The position numbers were made by a program, and so were the translations under genes. This document shows positions 15,055 through 52,371 of a stretch of 63,748 nt of DNA, piece after piece. Location of the stretch: the NCBI RefSeq assembly GCF_003545805.1, contig NZ_NMQR01000027.1, positions 1-63,748 of the forward strand, in the 5' to 3' direction. This DNA comes from Photorhabdus sp. CRCIA-P01 (lineage in GTDB: Bacteria; Pseudomonadota; Gammaproteobacteria; Enterobacterales; Enterobacteriaceae). Every line of letters starts with the position of its first letter. Within the stretch, counting starts at the first letter, position 1. Under the pieces are notes generated by a model. It had not been told where the DNA came from. It did no database searches and saw nothing but the letters and a program-made list of their open reading frames with translations.

Positions 15055-15181
15055 TATACCCGTTATCTTTCAAGCTGCCTCTTTGTTGGCTGCACTCACT
15101 CACCCCGGTCACATAGTTATCTATGCTCCCGGGGATTCGCTCCCTTGCCGTCGCGATGCAACTCGAAATCTATTAGGTATA
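15055..15181 (-). repeat. ERIC element, copy 1
   Basis: A full 127-bp enterobacterial repetitive intergenic consensus, bounded by TATACC and GGTATA and matching the ERIC consensus when read on the minus strand. It lies upstream of the ABC exporter pair. Any open frame through it is incidental. Confidence 0.95.
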
Positions 15182-15427
15182 TGCAGCCAACATCAAGGTT
15201 ATTAATAACAGATCGATCACAACAGCAAGATCTGGTTCACATTTAGCAAAATGCAATTATCGCAAAATACCCGCATTTATCACGATCTGATTGAAATGTT
15301 TATAAACGCTATCACAAGAAAATAACCGAACAATAAAATCGAGACCTTATTCTACAATGTCAATACCTTTATCAGGTCATTTAATAACCTAATTGTCAGG
15401 TACATTCTCAATACGAATAATGAACAA
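15182..15427. other. Spacer between two ERIC copies
   Basis: No gene seen. Half-site matches to CRP (GTGA followed by weak right halves) occur around 15210-15245 but are not convincing. Together with the two ERICs and 15555-15828 it makes up a non-coding stretch of about 860 bases between the ABC pair and purC. Confidence 0.5.
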
Positions 15428-15554
15428 TATATCCTTCATCTTTCAAGCTGCTGCTTTGTTGGCTGCTTTCACTCACCCCAGTCACATAGTTATCTATGCT
15501 CCCTGGGATTCATTCACTTGCCGCCGCGCTGCAACTCGAAATCTATTAGGTATA
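15428..15554 (-). repeat. ERIC element, copy 2
   Basis: Second 127-bp ERIC in the same orientation, 246 bases from copy 1. It differs by several substitutions (for example GCTGCTTT in place of GCCTCTTT), so it is not a fresh duplication of copy 1. The following 15555-15825 is AT-rich with no gene visible. Confidence 0.95.
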
Positions 15555-35745: not shown

Positions 35746-36321
35746 ATGTCTGGTGGTTCTCATACTCCACCTGTTAGGTTACGCCCCCTTGAGCGGGAAG
35801 ATCTGCCTTTTATCCATCAATTAGATAACAATGCTAGCGTCATGCGTTACTGGTTCGAAGAACCTTATGAAGCTTTCGTTGAACTGTGCGATCTCTATGA
35901 CAAACATATTCACGACCAGAGCGAGCGCCGGTTTATTATCGCAAGTTCCGACGCCAAAGTTGGTTTGGTTGAATTAGTCGAAATCGACTATATCCACCGC
36001 CGGTCAGAATTTCAGATTATCATCGATCCCGCCTATCAGGGCCAAGGCCATGCAACCAAAGCGGCAAAACTGGCAATGGAATATGCATTTTCCGTACTTA
36101 ATCTGTATAAACTCTACCTGATTGTTGATAAAGAGAATATCAAGGCCATTCACATCTATAATAAGCTAGGTTTCTATATTGAGGGCGAATTAATAGACGA
36201 ATTCTTTATTAATGGCAGTTACCGCACAGCCATTCGCATGTGCGTTTTCCAACATCAATATTTTGCATCCAAGGAAGATGAAAAAATGAGTCAACAATTA
36301 CAGACCATAATATATACCTAA
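35746..36321 (+). CDS. speG: Spermidine N1-acetyltransferase
   Basis: 191 aa GNAT enzyme that acetylates spermidine and spermine to limit polyamine toxicity. Strong match to Spe[30 protein letters not shown], acetyl-CoA loop QGQGHATKA, and [13 protein letters not shown]. Between purN and ppk it is an addition relative to E. coli. The last two codons and the stop are supplied by an ERIC element (from 36313), so its natural C-terminal end has been replaced or trimmed. Confidence 0.96.
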
Positions 36322-36439
36322 TAGATTTCGAGTTGCAGCGCGGCGGCAAGTGAACGAATCCCCAGGAGCATAGATAACTATGTGACTGGGGTGAGTGAAA
36401 GCAGCCAACAAAGCAGCAGCTTGAAAGATGAAGGGTATA
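36313..36439 (+). repeat. ERIC element, copy 3
   Basis: 127-bp ERIC in opposite orientation to the other four. Its first nine bases (TAT ACC TAA) form the end of speG, and it ends 64 bases before ppk, so it is probably transcribed in the ppk leader. Confidence 0.95.
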
Positions 36440-38576: not shown

Positions 38577-40109
38577 ATGCCGCTAACACATGACAAGCCA
38601 ACGCCCAGACCAATAGAAATCGCGGCTATTGATCTAGGTTCAAACAGTTTTCATATGATTATCGCACGAATTGTTAACGACGCATTTCAGATTTTAGGTC
38701 GCTTAAAACAACGGGTCCATCTTGCCAACGGTCTTGATAACAACAATCAATTAAGCGAAGAAGCAATAACACGCGGTCTTGCCTGTCTAGCTTTATTTGC
38801 TGAACGGTTACAAGGCTTTCCTGCTGATAACGTTTGTCTGGTGGGCACTCACAGCTTACGTGAAGCCAGTAATGCCGAAGAGTTCATCAAACGCGCTAAA
38901 GACGTTATCCCCTACCCGATTGAAATTATTTCCGGCCATGAAGAAGCCCGCCTGATCTATATGGGGGTAGAACATACGCAACCAGAAAAAGACCGTAAAC
39001 TGGTGATTGATATTGGCGGAGGCTCCACTGAACTGGTGATTGGTGAAAATTTTGAGCCATTATTGGTGGAAAGCCGACGCATGGGATGCATTAGTTTCGC
39101 TAATCAATTCTTTCCCGATGACGAAATTAACGCAGAAAGATTCCGCCGAGCGCGGCTTGAAGCTGCACAAAAACTGGAAAATCTCTCATGGCAGTACCGC
39201 ATCACTGGCTGGAATTCAGCGCTTGGCGCATCCGGGACCATTAAAGCAGTGTATGAAGTACTGGTTGCAATGGGAGAAAAGGACGGATTAATCACCCCTG
39301 AACGGCTGGAGATGTTGGTCAAAGAAATACTCAAATTCAAGAAATTAAAAACCCTCGACCTACCCGGATTATCAGATGATCGTAAACACTTTTTTATCCC
39401 CGGTCTGGCTATCTTATGTGGCATATTCGATACCCTGCATATAAAAGCATTACAACTCTCAGATGGTGCGCTACGTGAAGGCGTTTTATATGAAATGGAA
39501 GGCCGTTTCCGTCATCAAGATATCCGCCAGAGAACCGCAAGAAGCCTGGCTGAACACTATAATATCGACAGAGAACAGGCAAAACGTGTCCTGAATACGA
39601 CTGAAACACTTTACCAACAGTGGGCAATCCAGAACCCTAAATTAGTGCAACCTCAACTCGAAGCGATTTTACACTGGGCGGCCATGTTACATGAAGTTGG
39701 ATTAAGTATTAATTTAAGCGGATTACAGCGACACTCTGCCTATATTCTGCAAAACACCAACTTACCAGGCTTTAATCAGGAACAACAATTACTGCTGGCA
39801 ACCCTGGTTCGCTGTCATCGTAAGACAATAAAACTGGATGATTTGCCAAGATTCAATTTATTCAAGAAAAAACAGTATCTGCCATTAATTCAAATTCTAC
39901 GTCTGGCAACTTTACTCAATAATCAACGCCAATCCACAACCATCCCTGAATCACTCAGACTGATTACTGATGATAGTTATTGGGCGCTCTATCTGCCTTA
40001 TAATTATTTATCAGAAAACACCCTGATGCAGCTTGATCTGGAAAAAGAGCAAGGTTACTGGCATAACGTTACGGGTTGGCAATTAGAAATAGCCGAGGAA
40101 TCAATATAA
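38577..40109 (+). CDS. ppx: Exopolyphosphatase
   Basis: 510 aa of the Ppx/GppA ASKHA fold: phosphate loops [15 protein letters not shown] and [13 protein letters not shown], catalytic Glu in [10 protein letters not shown], and a C-terminal HD-like helical domain with [18 protein letters not shown]. It releases phosphate from polyphosphate ends. ppk-ppx operon; a strong hairpin follows. Confidence 0.98.
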
Positions 40110-40119
40110 TTGCATCACT

Positions 40120-40144
40120 GTTTCCCCGAATTCTTCGGGGAAAC
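40120..40144. terminator. Bidirectional hairpin after ppx
   Basis: GTTTCCCCGAA-TTC-TTCGGGGAAAC between convergent ppx and the DMT transporter: an 11-base perfect stem, without long T tracts. Confidence 0.7.
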
Positions 40145-40159
40145 AAGCTATTATAAATG

Positions 40160-41008
40160 TCATAATTTCAAAAGAATGACACCCGCTATGATTATCACAA
40201 TACCAATCCACTGAATTTGGCTCAACCGTTCTCCGCGAATAAAAAAGCCCAATAAAGCAGTGACCCCACTTGCCAATGAACTCAGAACGGTAACAACGGC
40301 AACCTGTCCCGTTGCAGAACCGTAAGCTAATGAAGCAAACCCGATCAAACTAAAGAAACTAATTGAAAAAACCAGAGCGATAATTGAAATCGGCGGTAAT
40401 GATAAGTTCCCTTTTTTTAACAGTGTAAAGAACAAAACAACCACAGCGGTTAAATAGTAAATCCATAATGCATTGATAACACCCAGATCTCTAACAGCAA
40501 ATTCCCCTTGCAACCAGAAGCCTAAACCAAACATCAGTGAAGACAAAAGTGCAAAGAAAATTGAACCGGATGATTCTCGTTGTCCGTCTTTTGATTTCGG
40601 TATACTGGTTAGACAGGCACCAACAACACAAATAAATAGACTAAACAGAACCAAAGCGGTCATTGGTTTCCCATTTATTAGTGACAAAATCGTGGTAACG
40701 GCACCATAAAGCGAAACAATCGGCACGACAATGGAAGCCTTGCCGATCGATAATGCTTTAAGCAAAAACACCATTGCCATTAAATTGCAAACCGAAGCAA
40801 CAACACATAGGGTCAATTGAAAGAAACTTGCATTAACAAACGACATCTCAAAATAAAAAAACAGCAACAACGATAAAACAAAAAAACCAAATAGCTGACT
40901 GTAGAACAAAGATTTAGCAACGCCGACTTTTCTTGCGACTTGCCCTGCCAAAAAATCAGTACTTCCCCAACACAATGCTGAAATCAACCCCATCAGAATA
41001 GCCATCAT
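40160..41008 (-). CDS. DMT-superfamily (EamA) transporter
   Basis: 282 aa, ten predicted TM helices in two EamA repeats; begins MMAILMGLISALCWGSTDFLAGQVARKVG. Members export amino acids, nucleosides and small metabolites. It ends the minus-strand unit started by the ATP-grasp gene (12 bases between), divergent from the AroA-pair operon, so it is a good candidate exporter for whatever that locus makes. Confidence 0.88.
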   Translation of the reverse strand: MMAILMGLISALCWGSTDFLAGQVARKVGVAKSLFYSQLFGFFVLSLLLFFYFEMSFVNASFFQLTLCVVASVCNLMAMVFLLKALSIGKASIVVPIVSLYGAVTTILSLINGKPMTALVLFSLFICVVGACLTSIPKSKDGQRESSGSIFFALLSSLMFGLGFWLQGEFAVRDLGVINALWIYYLTAVVVLFFTLLKKGNLSLPPISIIALVFSISFFSLIGFASLAYGSATGQVAVVTVLSSLASGVTALLGFFIRGERLSQIQWIGIVIIIAGVILLKL

Positions 41009-41020
41009 GATGATCTCTTA

Positions 41021-42283
41021 TTAATTTGTTTTTAACTGAACGCTGTTAGCAATACGTGTCGCATTTTCCATCGCTTGCTCACAGCTATTACCATAAGCCA
41101 GAACATAACCGACAATAGAACCAAAATTTTTACTTTTCGATGAACTTTTATTTTTCGATGAACTTTTACTTTTCGATGAAATAGAAAAAGGCGTCTTTTT
41201 AAACCCCGCGGAGATAAAATAAGGAATATCAGCATCTATTCTAATATCATCGACAATCCCCTCACCACGATAAAAAACAAATGCATCAGCGACAAATGGA
41301 TAAACTATTTCCGACGCTGGTGATATAGAACTTTCGATACCACAAACAAAATCGACCAAGTATTTGACCATATTAATCCCAGAGGTCATGAAGATCTGTT
41401 GAGCGGCTCTGGCACCCGCTATGCGCAAATTGATTTCAACTAATACAGGCCCACGAGAGGTATAAATAAACTCTACATTTATTGCGCCACCTCGTAATCC
41501 CAAAACAGCGACCCACTCTTTAACAAGCTTACAAGCCATTGTAAACTCAAATTCGGATAGCTCCGCAGGATGAGATAAACCTATCATACACAAGCTATCA
41601 TCAGGAGAAACAAAAATTCTATTGATACCCATTAAATGCCATTCATCATGACTATAAACTAATTCCGCTCCATAAAAATTTCCTTGCAGGAACTCTTCTA
41701 TCAAAAACTCCTCATTAACTTTACCGAGCATTGACATTGTGCCATTAGATGAAATTTCTGAAATCACATGGTAATAATCATCTAAAGATTTACAAAGTGA
41801 TACCCCATAAGCCCCCGCATCACGAAGTGGCTTAATAACAAATGGAAAAGGAACTTTAGGATTTTCTGGAATATTATTATAAGAAAAAACCTCGTAAGTA
41901 GGTTGCTCATAACCATGTTGTGCCAGGATATCCCTGACATTTTTCTTACTGAATGCGCTCCTCAAACCATTTATATCCGAGTGAGGTAAACCAAATTCTC
42001 GTGCTACTTCAGACGCCACAATCATAAAATCATCATAGCAGCCTAAGATCGCAGCAACAGGAATACGGTTATCTTTAATTAAATTAATGATATCTGTACT
42101 ATTTCTCGTATCGACATAATAAATATTATCAAATAATTCCTTTCTTAAATCATCATATAATCCTTTATTCATTGATTCCATTGAAGTAAATAACACAGGA
42201 GAAAACCCTAAATCTCTAATATAATCAATTGCCGAGCATTCAACCGGTCTTGCTTCAATAAAAATAAAAACACTCATATCCAC
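41021..42283 (-). CDS. ATP-grasp ligase with Ser/Lys repeat insertion
   Basis: 420 aa carboxylate-amine ligase of the ATP-grasp fold. Seen: pre-grasp Rossmann part (about 1-115), PFPFVIKPLRDAGAYGVSLC for nucleotide lysine and glycine loop, FLIEEFLQGNFYGAELV, and the metal/phosphate block GPVLVEINLRIAGARAAQ. The layout fits L-amino-acid ligases and other peptide-bond-forming enzymes of small-molecule pathways. Near residues 367-384 is a KSKSSSKNKSSSKSKN stretch encoded by three 18-bp tandem repeats (41130-41183), unlike the rest of the protein. A GGGGTGG site precedes the start. Confidence 0.87.
   Translation of the reverse strand: MDMSVFIFIEARPVECSAIDYIRDLGFSPVLFTSMESMNKGLYDDLRKELFDNIYYVDTRNSTDIINLIKDNRIPVAAILGCYDDFMIVASEVAREFGLPHSDINGLRSAFSKKNVRDILAQHGYEQPTYEVFSYNNIPENPKVPFPFVIKPLRDAGAYGVSLCKSLDDYYHVISEISSNGTMSMLGKVNEEFLIEEFLQGNFYGAELVYSHDEWHLMGINRIFVSPDDSLCMIGLSHPAELSEFEFTMACKLVKEWVAVLGLRGGAINVEFIYTSRGPVLVEINLRIAGARAAQQIFMTSGINMVKYLVDFVCGIESSISPASEIVYPFVADAFVFYRGEGIVDDIRIDADIPYFISAGFKKTPFSISSKSKSSSKNKSSSKSKNFGSIVGYVLAYGNSCEQAMENATRIANSVQLKTN
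41130..41183 (-). repeat. Three 18-bp tandem repeats inside the ATP-grasp gene
   Basis: Three near-identical units (on the plus strand TTTACTTTTCGATGAACT and two variants). The length is a multiple of three, so gain or loss of units keeps the frame and changes only the Ser/Lys linker. Confidence 0.85.
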
Positions 42284-42727
42284 CCCATCGTTAGTTGATA
42301 TTTATTAATTTATGACGCTTTCTTCATTCCTGAAATAATCTAATTTTATTTAATAATAAAAAAATTCATTAAAATTAAGACAACCTAATCATCATGTATA
42401 GTTCCAATTAAGATGACTTTCAAATAAAAAAACCGTCAGAATACAACCAGACTCAGCTCTTTAATACATAACCGATTAAATAATAAAAGAATTCTTTTAA
42501 TAAAAAATAAATTTACCACCAAGATAAAATATTTATTCATTTTTAAAATAAAAAAATAACCAATTATTCCATTTTAATAATAAATTTCATTTGACATATC
42601 AGACTTTATATACTTTTATTAATACTGCATTGATTTACGGATATTTTTAGTTAACAGAATAAATTGTTTAAATTAATTTATTGTTTCCAAATCTTCTTCT
42701 TATATATTTTCATTTATAGGAGTATTT
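42284..42727. other. Divergent promoter region of the AroA-pair locus
   Basis: About 444 very AT-rich bases between the ATP-grasp gene and the Rid gene, with no gene seen. Both transcription units must start here. One FNR-like sequence (TTGAT-ATTT-ATTAA, 42295-42308) lies only 12 bases before the ATP-grasp start; its meaning is doubtful. Confidence 0.6.
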
Positions 42728-43126
42728 ATGTCATCTCATGAAATTAGAAAAACAGTATTCAGCCCCTCTCCATGGGAAAATAAAATGGGATACTCAAGAG
42801 GAAAAAGAGTTGGTAATCAGATCTTTATTGCAGGATGTGTCGCTTCGGATGGTGATGGAAATGTCATGGGGAAAAATGCTTACGAGCAAACTCTATTTAT
42901 CATAGAAAAAATTGAGAAATATTTAAAAGAGCTTGATGCAGAACTGACTGATGTTGTCAGCACAGTAACACATTTAACAGATTTCCAACATTTTGATGAT
43001 TATTGTCGAGCATTTAATGAAAAATTTGGCGATATACGCCCAGTCAATACGACTATTGCCGTTAAATCAATGGTGAAGCCAGAACATTACGTTGAAATTA
43101 CAACTATTGCTATCGACAGCAAATAG
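42728..43126 (+). CDS. Rid-family (YjgF/YER057c/UK114) protein
   Basis: 132 aa with the Rid fold: YSRGKRVGNQIFIAGCVA, YEQTLFIIEKIEKYLKELDAELTDVV, HFDDYCRAFNEKF and RPVNTTIAVKSMVKPEHYVEI. The arginine of RidA (in PARS) that salt-bridges the imine substrate is replaced here (PVNT), so it belongs to the branches lacking classic imine deaminase chemistry. Such members often accompany biosynthetic loci. First gene of the Rid-AroA-AroA-AsnB operon, with an AGGAG site. Confidence 0.88.
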   Translation: MSSHEIRKTVFSPSPWENKMGYSRGKRVGNQIFIAGCVASDGDGNVMGKNAYEQTLFIIEKIEKYLKELDAELTDVVSTVTHLTDFQHFDDYCRAFNEKFGDIRPVNTTIAVKSMVKPEHYVEITTIAIDSK

Positions 43127-43178
43127 TTAAATTAAAGAATAATACCAATGGTAATTGATCTCTACCTGGAGGCTTGGC

Positions 43179-44483
43179 ATGAATAAAGTTAGCGTGCTCC
43201 CCGGTTCCACTCTTAATGGGGAAATAGTCATACCATCATCTAAGCCTCATATCCAAAGAGCGCTACTATTAGCACTGTTGAATGAAGAAATAACAACCGT
43301 AAATAATATATCGTGGTGTACCGAAACCGAAGATCTCCTTATTGCTTTACAACAGTTTGGTCTGAAAATTCTGGACAAAAGTGAAAATCACATCATCTTG
43401 AAAGGGGCACGTCCAATATATCATTGTAATGGGATCATTAATGCTAACGGTTCTGGCATGTTATTCAGAATCAGTGTCGCTTTAGCATCACTAACAGAAA
43501 AGGAAGTTTATATAAAATGCAATGACTCACTGTTTAACAGAGAAAGTCTGTATGATGAATCATTTTTTTCATACCTGAATGTATTTGCAGAAAAGCGAGA
43601 AGAAAATATCGTTATTATTTCCAGGAGAATATATCCTTCACAGTCATCATTAAACTTCAATAAGAGTACTCAATTCCTATCATTCTCTCTTCTTGTTTCG
43701 CCATTTATTAAAGGGAAAAGTATTATCATTAACAACAACGGCGAAACTAAGAATGGATATGTCGATATGACAATTAACATGATGGCGTTGCTGGGGAGTA
43801 AAATCACTCGAATAGGCAGCACATTTATTTCAACTGAATATCAATCAAGGGATATTACGATTAACATCCCTTCTGATTTCACATCACTAAGCTACATTGC
43901 TTCGTCAATATTAAGTATTAATCGACCAAGCAAAGTCACCATCAGAAGTTATTATTTGGGTAATACAATTAACGAAAGAGTATTATTTGACATATATAAA
44001 AAATTTGGCATGAATTTAAACTATAACCCAATTAAGAATGAACTTAATATCAGCCTGGAGGAGGAGCATAACGCCATTACAGATGAAATCCATTTAAATG
44101 AACTTCCTTCCGCTGCCACTAACATTATCGCGGCAGCGATTAATGGTAATCGAGATATCACATTTTCCGGTCTTAATGCTATAAACAATCATAAATGTCA
44201 ACGAGCATTTATTATCAACGAAAATATACGCATGATGGGAGGAAAAAGTTATTTAATTTTTAATGATACCGGGGCTTTCAACAAAATAAGGATTAACGGT
44301 AACGGACCATTAAATGGAGGCGTTGAAATATTCAGCTACTATGATCATCGAATTTGCGCATCCAATATTATTGCATCACTAGGGGCAAGAGAACGAACAA
44401 CGGTTAATCATATACATAAATTAGATGATGGTTTTCCTGGATTTATCCCATCCTTAAGTTCTCTCGGAGCTAAAATAAGTTAG
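43179..44483 (+). CDS. EPSP-synthase (AroA)-like protein 1, divergent active site
   Basis: 434 aa from the ATG at 43179, seven bases after TGGAGG. The double-domain inside-out barrel pattern of EPSP synthase is visible throughout: PSSKPHIQRALLLALL (Lys and Arg of the substrate site kept), NANGSGMLFR, STQFLSFSLL and YYDHRICASN. By hand alignment the catalytic Asp (DAA in AroA) is Ser (LPSAATN), and the Lys-Glu of VKETDR is altered (NNHKCQR). It should not make EPSP; it may transfer enolpyruvyl to another acceptor, or act with the next gene's product. Function unassigned. Confidence 0.85.
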   Translation: MNKVSVLPGSTLNGEIVIPSSKPHIQRALLLALLNEEITTVNNISWCTETEDLLIALQQFGLKILDKSENHIILKGARPIYHCNGIINANGSGMLFRISVALASLTEKEVYIKCNDSLFNRESLYDESFFSYLNVFAEKREENIVIISRRIYPSQSSLNFNKSTQFLSFSLLVSPFIKGKSIIINNNGETKNGYVDMTINMMALLGSKITRIGSTFISTEYQSRDITINIPSDFTSLSYIASSILSINRPSKVTIRSYYLGNTINERVLFDIYKKFGMNLNYNPIKNELNISLEEEHNAITDEIHLNELPSAATNIIAAAINGNRDITFSGLNAINNHKCQRAFIINENIRMMGGKSYLIFNDTGAFNKIRINGNGPLNGGVEIFSYYDHRICASNIIASLGARERTTVNHIHKLDDGFPGFIPSLSSLGAKIS

Positions 44484-44510
44484 CTAACAGTATAAAAGCG
44501 AGACAAAAAT

Positions 44511-45866
44511 ATGAAGTATTATGGTAATAATCATCCGCCATTTATCGAAATAAACAAAACCAAATCATTAAATGGCTCAATAACTTTACCTGCCTCCAAA
44601 AGTTCTTCAACCCGCGCCATTCTGACTGCATCATTAACGGAAGGTACAAGTAAAATAAATAACATGGCATCAGGGAACAATACAACAGCAATGAAATTAA
44701 ACTGTTCCCGCTTAGGGGCATCATTTAATAGTGATATTACAGGGACAATCGTAGAAGGCATGGATATCAGAAAAGTTGATAAAAAAATCATCTTTAACCC
44801 AGGTAATTCTGGCGTTGTATTACGGCTATTAATGGGAGTATCCGGTTATTTACCAGATACTGAATTTATTACAGAATACAGTCACTCCCTGGGTACACGA
44901 TCACAATCAGAAATGGTCAATGCACTAAAATTACTCAATATTCAGTGCACTGCGGTTGGGCCTGATTCACTTTTACCGATAAGCATGAAATCGGATAGAA
45001 ACATCAGTAGTTACACCGAAATTTCATGCAGAAAGAGTTCTCAATTCCTGAGTGGACTACTTTACTTAGGTGCCATTAGTGAACGAGATCTGCAAATAAA
45101 AGTCATCGATACCATTACCGCACCATCAATGGTTCACACGACAATTAATAATTTGCGCAAAGCCGGCATTAATATTGAATATGACGATAAATTTCGCAAT
45201 TTCTTTACGACAGGAAAGAGTCGATTTATCCCATCAGAATTTAGCGTTGGCGCTGATCCAGCCAGCACAGCGGCGATTCTTGCACTTTGTGCCTCACTGA
45301 ATGCTGATGTCACCCTAAACGGTTTCTTTGAGGAAGAATTAGGTAATGGCGCAGTGGTAAATTATTTAATTAACAGTGGAACGAAAATCAGCTTCATCAA
45401 GGATAATTGTCTCAATATTCGATCTGGCGGAACCCTAAAAGCGCAAGATTTCGATGGTTCACTGGCACCAGATGCTGTACCTGCACTTGCTGCATTAGCT
45501 GCGTTTGCCGACGGTAAAAGCGTTTTCTATAACATTGAACATATCCGCTATAAAGAATCAGACAGAATTTCTGATTTTCGACGGGAATTAGACAAAATAG
45601 GGATTAGATCAGAAGAGAAGCTAGACCAATTAATTATTTATGGCAATCCCCATGGATATAAAGGCGGTGTTATTGTTGATGGTCATTACGATCATGGATT
45701 AATCATGGCGCTCACAACCATAGGTTTACATTGTGATGAGCCCCTCATTATTAGTGATCCATATCATGTTGGTCAGACCTACCCAGAATATTTCGCCGAA
45801 ATATCCACATTAGGCGCCAATGTGAACGAATTAAAATATTCTGGCCCTATACCAGAAGACATTTAA
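44511..45866 (+). CDS. EPSP-synthase (AroA)-like protein 2, altered PEP site
   Basis: 451 aa AroA homologue. It keeps what the neighbour lost: SKSSSTRAIL, NSGVVLRLL, KSSQFLSGLL, catalytic Asp in SLAPDAVPALAAL and Lys-Glu-Arg in IRYKESDRISDF. But the PEP-phosphate arginine of the DHR motif is Gly (YDHGLIMAL), and the C-terminal Lys of the AroA KTFPDY motif is Gln (GQTYPEYF). Low identity to copy 1 indicates old paralogues, not a recent duplication. Enolpyruvyl transferases of this fold are known in nucleoside-antibiotic pathways (NikO/PolA), so a secondary-metabolic role is reasonable. Confidence 0.87.
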   Translation: MKYYGNNHPPFIEINKTKSLNGSITLPASKSSSTRAILTASLTEGTSKINNMASGNNTTAMKLNCSRLGASFNSDITGTIVEGMDIRKVDKKIIFNPGNSGVVLRLLMGVSGYLPDTEFITEYSHSLGTRSQSEMVNALKLLNIQCTAVGPDSLLPISMKSDRNISSYTEISCRKSSQFLSGLLYLGAISERDLQIKVIDTITAPSMVHTTINNLRKAGINIEYDDKFRNFFTTGKSRFIPSEFSVGADPASTAAILALCASLNADVTLNGFFEEELGNGAVVNYLINSGTKISFIKDNCLNIRSGGTLKAQDFDGSLAPDAVPALAALAAFADGKSVFYNIEHIRYKESDRISDFRRELDKIGIRSEEKLDQLIIYGNPHGYKGGVIVDGHYDHGLIMALTTIGLHCDEPLIISDPYHVGQTYPEYFAEISTLGANVNELKYSGPIPEDI

Positions 45867-45901
45867 ATATCATTGATAACTCTTAACCAAAGGAATTCAC
45901 T

Positions 45902-47434
45902 ATGTGTGGAATTGGTGGTGTTTTTAATACAGAAAATAGGCTTATTGATGATATTGAGAATAAGCTACAGACTATAATGTCAAAAATAGCACATCGAGGC
46001 GATCCATCTCGGTTTAATGAGAAGATTGTCAGAAATAACTTTTCAATCGCAACCAACAGACTTGCTATTGTCGAACGCGATTCAGCCTATCAACCCATAT
46101 CGAATCAGGAACATGATCTTCATCTTGTTCTGAATGGTCAAATTTATAATTACAAGTCTCTTCGAAATGAATTAATTAAACAAGGTTATCAATTTAAAAA
46201 TGGTGGCGATGCAGAAGTTATCCTAATTTCATATATTTGTTATGGCAAATCATTTATTAAAAAACTAGATGGAATGTTTAGTTTTATTCTATTTGATAAT
46301 AAGAATAATAAATTCTTATTAGGCAGAGATCACGTCGGTATAAAACCTCTCTATTACACCCAAAAAGAGGATAACTGGTATGTGGCATCAGAAATAAAAT
46401 CATTGATCGAGTTTAACTCAGAAATTAAACCTGTTGAACCCGGTTCAATTTTCGACGGATTTACCAGTGAGAAATATATTAGCTACGGCACAACTATCCC
46501 AGCAAGCAGCGATAACTTCGAACAGGCAAAAGAAAAAGTCTATTCACTGTTAGATAATGCCGTCAGAAAGCGAGTTGACACAGACCTACCTGTATCAATT
46601 ATGTTTAGCGGCGGCATAGACAGTACCATCGTGCTCTATCTTGCAAAAAAATATCACCACGATATTACAGCGATTTCATTTGGATTACCCGGCTCAAAAG
46701 ACATTGAAATTGCCCAAAGATATTGTTCTGAGAATAAGATAAAACATATTATATATACATTTACTCAGGAAGAATTAATCAATAATATCCAAGACGCTAT
46801 CTATTATGGTGAATTTTTCGAACAAATTGATGCGATTGATTCAACTATTGCTCACTTTGGCTATTATATTGCTAACCGCCTTGGCTTTAAAATTGCTTTA
46901 TGTGGAGAAGGTAGTGATGAAATTTTTGCTGGCTACGATTTATTTAAGACCTATCCCGATCCCCATCATCTCTCCCTATATCGATTAAATAATCTTCATA
47001 GGACTGATTTACAAAGAGTTGATCGGGCAAGTATGAGAAATACTGTTGAAGCAAGAGTTCCCTTTATGGATTCAGCACTAGTGCCTTATGTTTTAAGCCT
47101 GGATTTCTCTTATAAACTCAATAATGGGATAGAAAAACATATTTTACGCGAAGCATTCAGAGGAAAAATACCCGAATATATTATTGACAGACCAAAAATA
47201 AGAATGCCAGATGGTAGTGGTGTAAAAAATACTATTATTGATTACGTTAAAGATATTAAATGCAATCTACCAAGAAACACGGTTGACAGCCTTAATTCTA
47301 TCGGGTTAACCAATCAAAGTTCATTGTATTTCGCTGAAAAATATCTCTCTTTTGGTTATCCACTACCGAAAGAACGCTTCAAAGAATCTGGCAAAGATTT
47401 CTCAGAATCTGGTTACTTTAATTTCATATCGTAA
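45902..47434 (+). CDS. AsnB-type glutamine-hydrolysing amidotransferase
   Basis: 510 aa, two domains: an N-terminal Ntn glutaminase with Cys2 (MCGIGGVFN), RLAIV and NGQIYNY, and a synthetase domain with PP-loop FSGGIDST and GEGSDEIFAGY. Both active sites look complete, so it can release ammonia from glutamine and adenylate a carboxylate. Shorter than E. coli AsnB (554 aa) and in an operon with AroA-like genes, it is more likely to amidate a pathway intermediate than to serve asparagine supply. An ERIC begins ten bases after the stop. Confidence 0.9.
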   Translation: MCGIGGVFNTENRLIDDIENKLQTIMSKIAHRGDPSRFNEKIVRNNFSIATNRLAIVERDSAYQPISNQEHDLHLVLNGQIYNYKSLRNELIKQGYQFKNGGDAEVILISYICYGKSFIKKLDGMFSFILFDNKNNKFLLGRDHVGIKPLYYTQKEDNWYVASEIKSLIEFNSEIKPVEPGSIFDGFTSEKYISYGTTIPASSDNFEQAKEKVYSLLDNAVRKRVDTDLPVSIMFSGGIDSTIVLYLAKKYHHDITAISFGLPGSKDIEIAQRYCSENKIKHIIYTFTQEELINNIQDAIYYGEFFEQIDAIDSTIAHFGYYIANRLGFKIALCGEGSDEIFAGYDLFKTYPDPHHLSLYRLNNLHRTDLQRVDRASMRNTVEARVPFMDSALVPYVLSLDFSYKLNNGIEKHILREAFRGKIPEYIIDRPKIRMPDGSGVKNTIIDYVKDIKCNLPRNTVDSLNSIGLTNQSSLYFAEKYLSFGYPLPKERFKESGKDFSESGYFNFIS

Positions 47435-47443
47435 TTTAACCAT

Positions 47444-47570
47444 TATACCCGTCATCTTTCAAGTTGCCTCTTTGTTGGCTGCACTCGCTCACCCCGGTCA
47501 CATAGTTATCTATGCTCCCGGGGATTCGCTCCCTTGCCGTCGCGATGCATCTTGAAATCCATAGGGTATA
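47444..47570 (-). repeat. ERIC element, copy 4
   Basis: 127-bp ERIC between the convergent amidotransferase and Crp/Fnr-type genes; probably contributes to the 3' end of both transcripts. Confidence 0.95.
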
Positions 47571-47622
47571 TTCTGTTAACAATGCAGCTATTTAGCGATA
47601 AAAATAGGATTTTTTATTTTCA

Positions 47623-48309
47623 TCACTTAACGTCAAATTGAAACTCAATATCCTTTTTTAAGAAATCATAACCAATAATTTCAACTCTCTTATTCTTTGA
47701 TACAATTATTCCTTTTTCATTCAAACTCTTAATAGCTCTATTTAATTGCCTGACTGAAACACCTAAAACAGATGCTAAATCTTCCCTTTTCTCTAATACC
47801 AACACAGTTCCATTTCTTTTCGAATGATAGTAAAGAAATCGCTTTAACTTATCCTCAACAGTTAGAAATACTCCCGTTCGAAACAAAGAAGACTCAAAAA
47901 GCTTATTACTGAGTTGTTTACAAACAAATTGAAGAAATCCAGGATCTGTTAATCCAAATATTCTTACCGTCTCTAGCGGAATTGATAGCAGTACTGATCG
48001 CTCCTGAGCAAAGACAGTATTAATTATGTTATCGCCTTGGGAATGAAAGAATTCTAAATCTCCTATAAGAAAAAGAGGAATAGCAAAGGCAAAAACACAG
48101 AATTTTCCATTAATATTATAAAACTCAACCTTTAGTTTACCCTCAACTAAAATATAGAGATGAGTAAAAATTGATGACTGATGTGTAAGATAGGCATTTT
48201 TCTTAACTTCAACCACATCTAACTTTGGCATAAATGCTGCTGGGAGAATGCTATCAAGATGATATTTATCAACATAATCTTTCAATTTATTCTCTTTATC
48301 CCGATACAT
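47623..48309 (-). CDS. Crp/Fnr-family transcriptional regulator
   Basis: 228 aa: cyclic-nucleotide-binding beta-roll (about 25-120; YLTHQSSIFTHLYILVEGKLKVEF), dimer helix and a C-terminal winged HTH (REDLASVLGVSVRQLNRAIKSLNEKGII). No Fnr-type N-terminal cysteine cluster, and the cAMP-pocket arginine/serine pattern of Crp is not evident, so the signal is unknown. Placed between the AroA-pair operon and the nucleoside genes, it could control either. An ERIC lies 38 bases upstream of its start. Confidence 0.87.
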   Translation of the reverse strand: MYRDKENKLKDYVDKYHLDSILPAAFMPKLDVVEVKKNAYLTHQSSIFTHLYILVEGKLKVEFYNINGKFCVFAFAIPLFLIGDLEFFHSQGDNIINTVFAQERSVLLSIPLETVRIFGLTDPGFLQFVCKQLSNKLFESSLFRTGVFLTVEDKLKRFLYYHSKRNGTVLVLEKREDLASVLGVSVRQLNRAIKSLNEKGIIVSKNKRVEIIGYDFLKKDIEFQFDVK

Positions 48310-48347
48310 ATTTCATTTACCATCTCTTAAATCACTCCATAACTAAG

Positions 48348-48474
48348 TATACCCGTTATCTTTCAAGTTGCCTCTTTGTTGGCTGCACTCACTCACCCCG
48401 GTCACATAGTTATCTATGCTCCCGGAGATTCGCGCCCTTGCCGTCGCGATGCAGCTTGAAATCCATAGGGTATA
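48348..48474 (-). repeat. ERIC element, copy 5
   Basis: 127-bp ERIC, same orientation as copy 4, directly upstream of the Crp/Fnr-type gene and so inside or next to its promoter region. Confidence 0.95.
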
Positions 48475-48602
48475 TATTTAAACATTTTAGATTTTTCCAT
48501 TTATTCTCCGTTAATTTCCCCACCAAAGTATTTATTGATAACAAATAATATATTTAATAAATTTTTCTCCACTATACACAAGGATAAATAGAATTTAATT
48601 TT

Positions 48603-49595
48603 TCACCATGGCAATCTCATTATTTCCTTTTCCAATCGTCTTTTCAATTCATTACCACAAAAGGAAGCATATAATGCATTTAAATTTGTTTCAATAAAAT
48701 CACTATATTGCCAACCAAAATATCGATTAATCCTCAAATATTCTTCACATAAGGTAATGTTTGCAACTGTCCGGGTATCTGTATTAATCCCAATATTTAC
48801 ACCAATCTCTTTTAAAAAATTAACTGGATGGTTTTCATAGATATCATAAATATCGCAAACAATATTACATGTCGGGCAAATTTCTAAATGTATATTTCTT
48901 TCTATAAGAAGATCAATAACATCTCGATCTTCAATACTTCTGACACCATGACCTATACGAGAAATATTTAATTTATTGATAGTCTCGCGTACACTTTCAG
49001 CCCCTTTCGCTTCTCCTGCATGCGCAATAACATTTCCACCATTTTCCAACACCATTCTAAACGCATTCAAATGTGCATTAAGTGGATATCTTGCCTCATC
49101 GGCAGCAAGATCGAGAGCAACAACACCGTAATTAGAATATTCATTGACAAGATATGCGGTTCTCAAACTTTGATCTTCTGAAAAATGCCGCAATGTACAT
49201 AATATTAAACCTGCTGCTATGCCATATTTGACTGAATAATTTTCCATTGACTCCAAAGCAATTTCTACAATATCGCGATCACTTAATCCTAAGCAAAGAT
49301 GAAGTAAAGGTGCAAATCTAATTTCAGCATAAATTACATTATCGCTTTTTAATTGTATGAAAAGATCTTCTACAGCATCAGCTATTACATCCCTTTTTTG
49401 TAATAAATCCAATGAAGGAGTAATTTTATTTAAAAAATCACCTAAATCATGGCATTTTTCAGGGGCAATATATTTTTCACAAAATGACTTCTGGGTAATA
49501 TCAGGAATAAATTTTTTAACGAAATGATAACTCAACCCACAATCAAGATGTGTATGTAACTCTACCTTTCTCAGTAAATCAGGATTAAAATTCAT
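48603..49595 (-). CDS. Adenosine-deaminase-like aminohydrolase
   Basis: 330 aa of the ADA/AMP deaminase family. Metal and catalytic motifs: VELHTHLD, HAGEA (catalytic Glu), RIGHG, and INTDTRT where ADA normally has TDDP. The zinc Asp is kept but the following Asp, which contacts the purine, is Thr. That could change the substrate, so adenosine should not be taken for granted. It follows a nucleoside hydrolase by 25 bases; together they would deaminate and cleave nucleosides. Confidence 0.87.
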   Translation of the reverse strand: MNFNPDLLRKVELHTHLDCGLSYHFVKKFIPDITQKSFCEKYIAPEKCHDLGDFLNKITPSLDLLQKRDVIADAVEDLFIQLKSDNVIYAEIRFAPLLHLCLGLSDRDIVEIALESMENYSVKYGIAAGLILCTLRHFSEDQSLRTAYLVNEYSNYGVVALDLAADEARYPLNAHLNAFRMVLENGGNVIAHAGEAKGAESVRETINKLNISRIGHGVRSIEDRDVIDLLIERNIHLEICPTCNIVCDIYDIYENHPVNFLKEIGVNIGINTDTRTVANITLCEEYLRINRYFGWQYSDFIETNLNALYASFCGNELKRRLEKEIMRLPW

Positions 49596-49620
49596 CTTTT
49601 ATCCTCCTATATAACTAAAA

Positions 49621-50550
49621 TTACGATAATAATGTCAATAGTTTATTCTTAAATACCTTACCCTTGATTTCAGTTACCACAGTCATATTATAGGGATGAT
49701 TGAGAAGATCGGTTGAATCAATAACTAAATGCCCATATGAACGTGAGCTTTGATATTCAACATAACCATACACCTCTAATTTATCCTCTATCATCTCATT
49801 CGGATATAAAGCAATAGCCATTGTTATAGGATCGGGCAGATCAAATCCCTTTCTATTCGTTCTTCCCTCATTGAATTCAATCAATGTTCTATTACAGCTC
49901 ACTGCAAATTGGCCAAGATCACCTAAAGAATTTAATTTATCCATATCGAATTCATCAATAAAAGCCTGTTCCATACCTAACTCCCACCCACAAAAGATAA
50001 GAGGCAATCCAGAATTCAATACGATATGTGCCGATTCAGCATCAGAATAGATATTGAATTCAGCTAATGGCGTAATATTACCTGGATTCAATCCAGAACC
50101 ACCCATAATATAAATCACTTTAATAAATTTATATAAATCTGGCTCTTTTAAGATAGCCATTGCGATATTTGTCAACGGCCCCAAAGTGATTATTTCTATC
50201 TCACCAGGAAATCTTTTCACGATATCAATAATTGCATCTACTGCATGTTTATCTTCTGCTATTAGCGAAGACTCTGGTAAATTCATATTACCCATACCAT
50301 CTTTTCCATGAATATGATATGAAGCATAGTGATCTCTAAATAATGGTTTACTCATCCCTTCATATACCGGAGGAATATATGTTCCTGCTTTTTCAATACT
50401 GACTAACGCATTTTTCCTGCACTGAGCAACAGCACAATTACCGGCAACAATAGTAATACCTTCAATAAAAACCGAGGGTTCACGGAGCGCCATCAGTAAT
50501 GCAACTGCATCATCGGAAGCCGTATCTGTATCAATAATGAAATGTCTCAT
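49621..50550 (-). CDS. Inosine-uridine-type nucleoside hydrolase
   Basis: 309 aa with the calcium-binding N-terminus IIDTDTASDDAVALL, the ribose-binding EFNIYSDAESAHIVL and the late Asp in DLPDPITMAIAL. It hydrolyses ribonucleosides to base and ribose. First gene of a two-gene salvage operon with the ADA-like gene. A perfect CRP site lies about 120 bases upstream. Confidence 0.92.
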   Translation of the reverse strand: MRHFIIDTDTASDDAVALLMALREPSVFIEGITIVAGNCAVAQCRKNALVSIEKAGTYIPPVYEGMSKPLFRDHYASYHIHGKDGMGNMNLPESSLIAEDKHAVDAIIDIVKRFPGEIEIITLGPLTNIAMAILKEPDLYKFIKVIYIMGGSGLNPGNITPLAEFNIYSDAESAHIVLNSGLPLIFCGWELGMEQAFIDEFDMDKLNSLGDLGQFAVSCNRTLIEFNEGRTNRKGFDLPDPITMAIALYPNEMIEDKLEVYGYVEYQSSRSYGHLVIDSTDLLNHPYNMTVVTEIKGKVFKNKLLTLLS

Positions 50551-51153: not shown

Positions 51154-52371
51154 ATGAATCAAAATAATAAACACCGTACCCTCCTTTTCCGTGTAGTTTT
51201 TCGTGTAGTACTGGCCGTTGTTGTCATTGCTGCCGCTATATTTTTCTGGTACCAACTTAAAACCCCTCAACAATCTAGCCCATCTGATCAATCCTCTGGT
51301 TTAAAACATTCCCATTTACCCCCGGTTCAGGTTGCCACGGTAAAAGAGCAGGCAGTCCCTCGCTTTCTGGCCGGGCTTGGCACCATTCAGGCCGCCAATA
51401 CCGCCACGGTAACCAGCCGGGTTGAAGGTCAGCTTATCGCTTTGCACTTTCAGGAAGGTCAACAAATTAAACAAGGGGATTTACTGGCGGAAATTGATCC
51501 ACGCCCTTTTCAGGTTCAACTCGCACAAGCCAAAGGCCAACTGGCTAAAGATGAAGCAATATTGGCGAATGCCCGTCAGGATCTCAATCGCTACCAGAAA
51601 TTGGCAAACACTCACCTAATTTCCCAACAAGAAATGGATAATCAACGTGCACTTGTCCGCCAACACGAAGCCAGTCTGAAAGTTGATCAAGCAGCAATTG
51701 ATAGTGCAAAACTTCAACTCACTTACAGCCATATTACGGCTCCCATTTCCGGTAAAGTGGGCTTGAAACAGATCGATGTAGGAAATTTTATTTCCAGTGG
51801 TAACAGCTCTCCTATTGTGGTTATTACCCAAACCGATCCGGTAGATGTGCTATTTTCACTCCCTGAAAACGATATTAATGCTGTTTTACAAGCTCAGAAA
51901 ACGAATCACGACGTCGTTGTTAGTGCCTGGGATCGCAATAACCAGCAACAACTTGCCGAAGGAAAACTGTTAAGCCTTGATAATCAAATTGATGCTACTA
52001 CCGGCACAATTAAGCTGAAAGCGCGTTTTTCCAATCAAAATAGCATCTTATTCCCAAATCAGTTTGTTAATGTCCGTATTAAAGTCGATACACTGGAAAA
52101 CGCAGTGGTGATCCCAAATGCTGCCCTGCAAATGGGTAATGAAGGGAATTTTGTCTGGATGTTAGGTAAAGAGAATAAAGTCAGCAAACATCTGGTCACA
52201 GTCAAATTGCAGGATACAAAACGCGTTGTTATCAGTACCGGCTTAGCCGCAGGTGATAAAGTGGTTACTGATGGTATTGATCGCCTGACAGATGGCGCTA
52301 AGGTGGATATTGTCACACCGATGGCAAATAAGCCTCAGCCACAAAAACATGATAAAACGGAGAATTCCTGA
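51154..52371 (+). CDS. mdtA: MdtA, membrane fusion protein of the MdtABC efflux pump
   Basis: 405 aa RND adaptor: N-terminal anchor (about 10-33), lipoyl halves ([36 protein letters not shown] is the first), hairpin and beta-barrel, with FSLPENDI. It bridges MdtBC and TolC. Start codon overlaps nothing upstream; its stop shares a base with the mdtB start. Likely induced by BaeSR under envelope stress. Confidence 0.96.

Follow-up and report, generated by a model that had tools for sequence, protein, structure and literature searches.

Two divergent EPSP-synthase paralogues at the core of a putative biosynthesis-and-export locus in Photorhabdus

A 63,748-nucleotide stretch of the Photorhabdus sp. 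CRCIA-P01 genome (contig NZ_NMQR01000027.1; this whole stretch is called the window below) carries, at positions 40160..47434, six genes that include two adjacent paralogues of 5-enolpyruvylshikimate 3-phosphate (EPSP) synthase, which we call EPSP1 and EPSP2. We consider it probable, with some reservation, that this is a short biosynthesis-and-export locus whose core is an EPSP-fold pair repurposed together, away from ordinary enolpyruvyl transfer from phosphoenolpyruvate (PEP), and whose exported product would be amide- or peptide-like. The preliminary description of this DNA had proposed a dedicated small-molecule locus around two AroA paralogues, together with a transporter and enzymes of families that form amide bonds, and our data support that proposal. 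All six predicted open reading frames (ORFs) lie where it placed them, with the tight spacing it reported, and Pfam confirmed their families. Its remark that no such cluster had been described also holds, in that a title and abstract search of openly licensed papers found no published description.

Results

EPSP1 and EPSP2 have each lost active-site residues

EPSP1 (43179..44483, + strand, 434 aa) and EPSP2 (44511..45866, + strand, 451 aa) are both spanned along their whole length by PF00275 (E 3.4e-35 and 8.8e-61, respectively). Against the aroA model TIGR01356 (cut-off 287.25 bits), EPSP1 scored 142.1 bits, below the cut-off, and EPSP2 290.3 bits, barely above it. Both were below the 392.7-bit cut-off of the MurA model TIGR01072 (50.1 and 36.6 bits, respectively). 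An ordinary AroA is encoded elsewhere in the window genome.

We compared active-site residues in E. coli numbering. The window EPSP1 carries S23P, N94G, D313S, K340H, E341K and K411D, and the 11 EPSP1-type sequences in the comparison (nine EPSP1 and two of a related group, EPSP1b) all share S23P, N94G, K340H and E341K, with D313 replaced by S, T or N and K411 by D or C; K22, R27, R100, R124, S169, Q171, Y200, R344, H385 and R386 are kept in every one. In the window EPSP2 the changes are S197A, Y200M, R386G and K411Q, with D313 and E341 retained. All 10 EPSP2 sequences have S197A, Y200M, N336H, R386 replaced by G or A, and K411Q, and keep K22, S23, R27, R100, R124, S169, S170, Q171, D313, K340, E341, R344 and H385; N336H is not diagnostic, since some AroA controls have it too. 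D313, E341, R386 and K411 are kept in 18/18 AroA controls. It should be noted that many of the controls and many of the EPSP sequences are close kin, and some of the latter near-copies; the table leaves out a truncated EPSP1 (G1093) and the near-copies L005, L008, L010, L059 and L090, and holds one aligned, uncounted MurA row.

R386 binds carboxylate in EPSP synthase. In two published accounts, Asp313 and Glu341 are given as the general acid/base of EPSP synthase, with Lys22 also crucial (PMC12256929), and Lys22, Arg124 and Lys411 are said to dominate the glyphosate site and are linked to PEP binding (PMC3411725). Read against these roles, the losses are complementary, EPSP1 having lost the acid/base side and EPSP2 the PEP-anion side, and the two proteins may work in sequence or as one complex. 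By its residues neither paralogue resembles an ordinary EPSP synthase, and because catalytic or PEP-site residues are lost, neither clade should be called EPSP synthase as it stands, even though EPSP2 is narrowly over the NCBI cut-off.

The preliminary description had suggested an enolpyruvylated intermediate, and enolpyruvyl transferases do occur in the nikkomycin and polyoxin pathways. One or both paralogues would then be true enolpyruvyl transferases acting on a new acceptor, with a product that carries or derives from the enolpyruvyl group. The fold is conserved, EPSP1 keeps R124, R344 and R386, EPSP2 keeps D313, E341, K22 and R124, and a relaxed pocket could still take PEP in another geometry. 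Nevertheless, every sequence read from the two clades lacks K411, those of EPSP2 also lack R386 and those of EPSP1 also lack D313/E341, whereas all AroA controls keep these residues. The residues that ordinary EPSP synthases use for PEP binding or processing being those lost, the enolpyruvylated intermediate is unsupported, and we judge this alternative unlikely.

In a tree of 40 proteins, all nine EPSP1 sequences, that from Streptomyces included, were split off by one branch (support 100/99) and all 10 EPSP2 sequences by another (100/99). EPSP1b was sister to EPSP1 (97/97). EPSP2 had an ordinary Paenibacillus AroA as its sister (100/99), which means that AroA does not form a single group and that EPSP2 may have originated within it. 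The tree program warns of long branches, among them the MurA and Streptomyces sequences.

The EPSP1-EPSP2 pair recurs in distant lineages

EPSP1 lies immediately upstream of EPSP2 in all 14 genomes or records examined that have an EPSP2-type gene: seven Photorhabdus genomes (window included), the locus L010, three genomes of the Xenorhabdus-like genus g13, two of genus g127 and one Streptomyces plasmid, with genome (G) and locus (L) entries matched by coordinate arithmetic. This order is thus common to four lineages, and in 12 of these cases AsnB, whole or partial, comes next. Lack of conservation in other genomes had been named beforehand as grounds for abandoning the proposal; instead, the pair and AsnB are kept in Xenorhabdus-like genomes and on the Streptomyces plasmid.

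Of 72,556 plasmid records searched by tblastn, two matched EPSP1: a 608-kb Streptomyces microflavus plasmid, aligned over almost the full query, and one from Acetoanaerobium, covering 44% of it. With the Streptomyces EPSP1 as probe, 20 plasmid records matched, the 19 others being at most 27.5% identical. On the S. microflavus plasmid, relatives of EPSP1, EPSP2 and AsnB (25%, 44% and 44% identical to the window proteins, respectively) are consecutive on one strand and are followed by a 77-aa ORF, a 1287-aa adenylation-carrier-thioesterase (A-T-TE) protein and an AroA with ordinary active-site residues (L041 24384-25706, less than 11 kb from EPSP1), which may serve self-resistance or supply precursor. 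As a possible self-resistance copy, this AroA would suit a reading in which the paralogues are spare or altered EPSP synthases that confer tolerance to an inhibitor of the shikimate pathway and have no biosynthetic role. We regard this as very improbable: EPSP1 and EPSP2 mostly travel with AsnB and with ligase or non-ribosomal peptide synthetase (NRPS) genes, and, lacking catalytic or PEP-site residues, they are unlikely to replace AroA.

Among 392 genomes of the window's family, an EPSP1 profile matched eight at 326 bits or more (four Photorhabdus, two g13 and two g127), the next match scoring 196 bits. The window, G160 and a Photorhabdus copy whose coordinates identify it as G138 are among the rows of the profile, and these three therefore match by construction. 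EPSP2 was found in three of 30 g13 genomes (G1109, G1141 and G1131). In G1109, EPSP1, EPSP2 and AsnB (53%, 67% and 63% identity to the window, respectively) are followed by a 933-aa A-T-TE protein and a formyltransferase-domain protein; in G1141 the contig ends inside AsnB. An A-T-TE gene follows the core in two of these three genomes, and is split in one. Two of four g127 genomes have the pair (EPSP1 54 and 53%, EPSP2 65%); the gene upstream of it is the same in both and, in G970, encodes a TauE-family transporter. The sole AsnB-type match in these two genomes at E<=1e-20 is a 569-aa frame of 33-34% identity elsewhere in the genome. That the pair stands beside a transporter without AsnB suggests that what it makes can be the final product, and speaks against a dependence of EPSP2 on an amide made by AsnB.

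EPSP1 found only its own copy in 398 Pseudomonadota genomes at E<=1e-14. In 369 Gammaproteobacteria genomes, the EPSP2 probe and a wider profile found, apart from their own copy, only matches in G610 and G795; these keep the ordinary residues D313, E341, R386 and K411 and are not members. Both 369-genome samples have the same size and centre and overlap with the other samples, and the Pseudomonadota, Gammaproteobacteria and family-profile scans each scored at most four candidate stretches per genome. Viral contigs gave no match and E. coli genomes no near match; Actinomycetota and other phyla were covered only through the plasmid collection. The Paenibacillus aroA, a plasmid match 35% identical to EPSP2, has ordinary residues and adjoins a shikimate kinase gene, and was likewise set aside. 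The EPSP1-EPSP2 pair is rare in what was searched, yet it recurs over great distance.

EPSP1b, found in G160 and G1109, shares most of the EPSP1 residue changes; it is a sister clade in a different cluster and does not belong to this core. In two g13 genomes (L042 1979-7956 and L081 256-6062), that cluster consists of an EPSP1-type protein, a PhyH dioxygenase, an acetolactate-synthase-like thiamine pyrophosphate enzyme, an MFS transporter and an SDR protein. Separately, G1131 has two copies of a 6.7-kb segment that carries EPSP1, EPSP2 and the 5′ part of AsnB (L090 7274-14012 and L091 7552-14291, 99.985% identical); at its edges lie inverted repeats of about 780 bp, whose short ORFs we take to be pieces of transposase genes.

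AsnB is probably an active amidotransferase

AsnB (45902..47434, + strand, 510 aa) has the Asn_synthase and GATase_7 domains of Pfam and passed TIGR01536 with 348.8 bits (cut-off 267); it remained below the cut-off of PRK09431 AsnB (355.7 of 499). Cys2, the pyrophosphate (PPi) loop (SGGIDS in the window) and the GEGSDE motif are intact in all six AsnB proteins read, suggesting that AsnB is probably an active glutamine-dependent amidotransferase. The best plasmid relatives of AsnB adjoin NRPS genes in S. microflavus and S. cellulosae, and not in the Tistrella region seen. The S. cellulosae and Tistrella relatives (38-40% identity) sit in other contexts with no EPSP-type gene annotated in the regions shown, and were not counted as members. 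Elsewhere, at G160:C56 27547-30311, a 646-aa frame with an AsnB-type match lies near a 441-aa frame with an ATP-grasp match.

At E<=1e-20 the window genome has no AsnB-type match other than AsnB itself, which would fit a reading in terms of ordinary metabolism, with AsnB as the cell's asparagine synthetase and the remainder of the locus a decaying relic. Against this, an AsnB-type match at that threshold is absent from G581 and G590, both Photorhabdus, so AsnB is dispensable for ordinary life there. Nor does a relic agree with all six genes being under purifying selection: dN/dS relative to the window was 0.02-0.19 in 42 comparisons (six genes in seven loci), highest in the ATP-grasp gene, then in EPSP1, and 0.06-0.10 in the DMT gene. 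The neighbouring gene ppx gave 0.04-0.06 in seven comparisons. We hold ordinary metabolism to be a most unlikely explanation.

Probable repeated loss of the locus within Photorhabdus

EPSP2 is present in 7/12 Photorhabdus genomes, the window's own included (EPSP2 probe, E<=1e-60), and EPSP1 in six named species of the genus at 86-96% identity. The window and the seven other Photorhabdus loci with the core that we examined (L005-L010 and L059) have all six genes, identically arranged. We read the same site in the five genomes lacking EPSP2, and three of these keep fragments of other locus genes: pieces of DMT and ATP-grasp in G588, of DMT in G589 and a degenerate piece of AsnB in G581. None of the six genes was seen at the site in G590 and G582. 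Because remnants lie at the same site in genomes without the locus, we infer ancestral presence and repeated loss; the locus is probably ancestral in part of the genus, and not freshly gained by the window strain.

The genes upstream of the pair and their counterparts in other lineages

The two genes of the - strand encode an EamA/DMT-family transporter (40160..41008, 282 aa, PF00892 E 2.3e-23) and an ATP-grasp ligase (41021..42283, 420 aa from its listed GTG start, with an ATG two codons later, PF13535 E 5.7e-14). Compared with solved structures, the ligase was closest to the L-amino acid ligase BL00235, then to a PurD-type protein and then to BacD. Its NCBIfam matches were all below cut-off, PRK02186 being the best (102.7 bits, cut-off 625), with PRK07206 next and DdaF at 43.9 bits (cut-off 840). 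It carries a VEIN motif. The transporter matched the NCBIfam carboxylate/amino acid/amine transporter model with 52 bits, below the 230-bit cut-off, and by family is probably the exporter of the product. The Rid-family protein (Ribonuc_L-PSP; 42728..43126, + strand, 132 aa, PF01042 E 1.5e-19) scored 43.4 bits against TIGR00004, below the cut-off of 106.25. At the position of the catalytic arginine of Rid/RidA hydrolases, which is R in two of three structural relatives shown, it has an N. The stretch RPVNTT is identical in all seven Photorhabdus copies read.

Five of the six non-Photorhabdus genomes with an EPSP1-type gene have no relative of the ATP-grasp ligase at E<=1e-10, and the sixth, G160, has only one of 23% identity elsewhere. 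The A-T-TE protein of g13 and Streptomyces may stand in for the ligase. The adenylation domains of the two proteins are 36% identical, and both codes begin with DAWQ and, compared by eye, resemble the code for glutamine; we take this as a hint only. A segment inside the adenylation domain of the Streptomyces protein matches SagB below the cut-off (E 5.9e-5); Pfam found no family in this segment.

The DMT and ATP-grasp genes on the one hand, and Rid-EPSP1-EPSP2-AsnB on the other, might be independent units that are mere neighbours in Photorhabdus. The core without an adjoining ATP-grasp gene in g13, g127 and Streptomyces fits this, as does the fact that G588 and G589 retain only DMT or ATP-grasp pieces. 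However, the window and the seven other Photorhabdus loci with the core hold all six genes, both units share one divergent intergenic region, and the surviving pieces fit partial deletion equally well. This alternative is therefore rather doubtful in our view. The single six-gene set of the preliminary description stands for Photorhabdus; elsewhere the DMT and ATP-grasp genes are not found with the core, and in two genomes the pair has no AsnB beside it.

Setting of the locus

The window genome amounts to 5.3 Mb in 208 contigs. The two units diverge from an AT-rich intergenic region of 444 bp with 20% G+C (42284..42727), DMT and ATP-grasp on the - strand and Rid, EPSP1, EPSP2 and AsnB on the + strand. 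Gaps within the units are 12, 28, 27 and 35 bp with the listed starts. The listed start of EPSP1 is a TTG at 43155; we prefer the ATG at 43179 because the g13 and g127 relatives begin at that position, which gives the 434-aa protein and a 52-bp gap after Rid. A shared AT-rich promoter region had been proposed. The AT-rich divergent gap is there, but promoter-like sites over 40100-47650 were not in excess of those in shuffled sequences (29 vs. 32.9, standard deviation 5.7), and what the two units share is position only.

The six genes have a G+C content of 34-40%, compared with 42-44% for the flanking genes used as markers of the same site in relatives, at 38577-40109 (left, which we take to be ppx) and 51154-52371 (right, presumably an RND-adaptor-like gene). 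Between AsnB and the right marker, at 47623-50550, are genes for a YeiL-like Crp-family regulator, an adenosine deaminase and a nucleoside hydrolase (31-36% G+C). A link to a nucleoside product through these neighbours was dropped, since all three match over almost their full extent in G590, a genome without any of the six. The block is broken or partial in G581, L007 and L008 and was not matched in L005. A dispersed repeat of about 128 bp, which we assume to be ERIC-like, occurs at 47444-47571, 48348-48475, 15055-15182, 15425-15554 and 36312-36439, with copies also at the locus site in G581 and G582.

Discussion

The pathway we propose, pieced together from gene content, would begin with the EPSP pair altering a phosphorylated shikimate-type substrate, or a similar phospho-hydroxyacid, without ordinary enolpyruvyl transfer. 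No obvious precursor-making enzyme is present among the six, so the substrate should be a primary metabolite, and the kept phosphate and ring contacts make shikimate 3-phosphate (S3P) or a look-alike a likely one. AsnB would then convert a carboxylate to a primary amide with glutamine as donor. In Photorhabdus the ATP-grasp ligase would attach an amino acid to this unit, and export of the product would fall to the DMT carrier; in the Xenorhabdus-like genomes and Streptomyces the stand-alone A-T-TE protein may replace the ligase.

Several points weigh against this proposal. The only guide to the substrate is the retention of the S3P-side residues K22, R27, R100, S169 and Q171, and two others on that side, S23 and K340, are lost in EPSP1. 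AsnB could, by its family, simply produce asparagine. Neither g127 genome has AsnB adjoining the pair, and in one of them (G1093) EPSP1 is truncated. In G1131 of g13, AsnB is interrupted, an insertion sequence being the apparent cause, and the NRPS gene beside one copy of the doubled segment reads as two ORFs. The link of the core to DMT and ATP-grasp is confined to Photorhabdus, and the Streptomyces case is a single plasmid whose sequences form long branches in the tree.

To our knowledge, few natural products are built with EPSP-synthase relatives. NikO and PolA of nucleoside antibiotic pathways are likewise EPSP/MurA-fold enzymes within a biosynthetic cluster; there, however, one such gene is known per cluster, whereas here two divergent clades are adjacent and no nucleoside-pathway gene is among the six. 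The likeness to EPSP synthase itself (AroA, PF00275, TIGR01356) lies in the whole-length family match, the many S3P-side residues kept and the score of EPSP2 just over the cut-off; the differences are the loss of D313, E341, K340 and K411 from EPSP1 and of R386, K411, S197 and Y200 from EPSP2, in a genome with an ordinary AroA elsewhere. AsnB resembles asparagine synthetase B in its intact Cys2, PPi loop and GEGSDE and in passing TIGR01536, but is under the PRK09431 cut-off, and no AsnB-type match was seen in two Photorhabdus genomes that lack the locus. The Streptomyces neighbour resembles indigoidine-synthetase-type NRPSs (A-Ox-T-TE) in its adenylation, carrier and thioesterase domains and the weak SagB match inside the first; no such protein is encoded in the window, the g13 relative is A-T-TE without an insert, and the Streptomyces insert contains no Pfam family. 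Lastly, the dapdiamide pathways with DdaF are also compact sets with an ATP-grasp amide ligase (PMC12568646), and the window ligase matches DdaF and BacD weakly; the available part of that account mentions no EPSP-fold enzyme, and 43.9 bits against a DdaF cut-off of 840 indicates kinship at the superfamily level only.

A bolder version, which we offer as speculation with little chance of being right in full, would make EPSP1 and EPSP2 two new enzyme types and EPSP1-EPSP2(-AsnB) the mark of an undescribed natural-product class of insect-associated enterobacteria and Streptomyces. D411 of EPSP1, together with R344/R386, would hold the ammonium and carboxylate groups of an amino acid instead of PEP, and the pair would couple phosphoshikimate to that amino acid. 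The resulting shikimate-derived amide may block the shikimate pathway, with the plasmid AroA as the self-resistance copy.

Two consistently altered clades, found across phyla and mostly with an amidotransferase, mark a pathway concealed by automatic annotation: EPSP2 passes for aroA by score, and the database record of its Streptomyces relative uses the label aroA. Looking for an EPSP1-type gene with an EPSP2-type gene next downstream is a simple way to find further clusters, and the pair provides two enzymes with which to ask what the EPSP-synthase fold does once its PEP site has been rebuilt. If the product does touch the shikimate pathway, it would also have a bearing on herbicide and antibacterial discovery.

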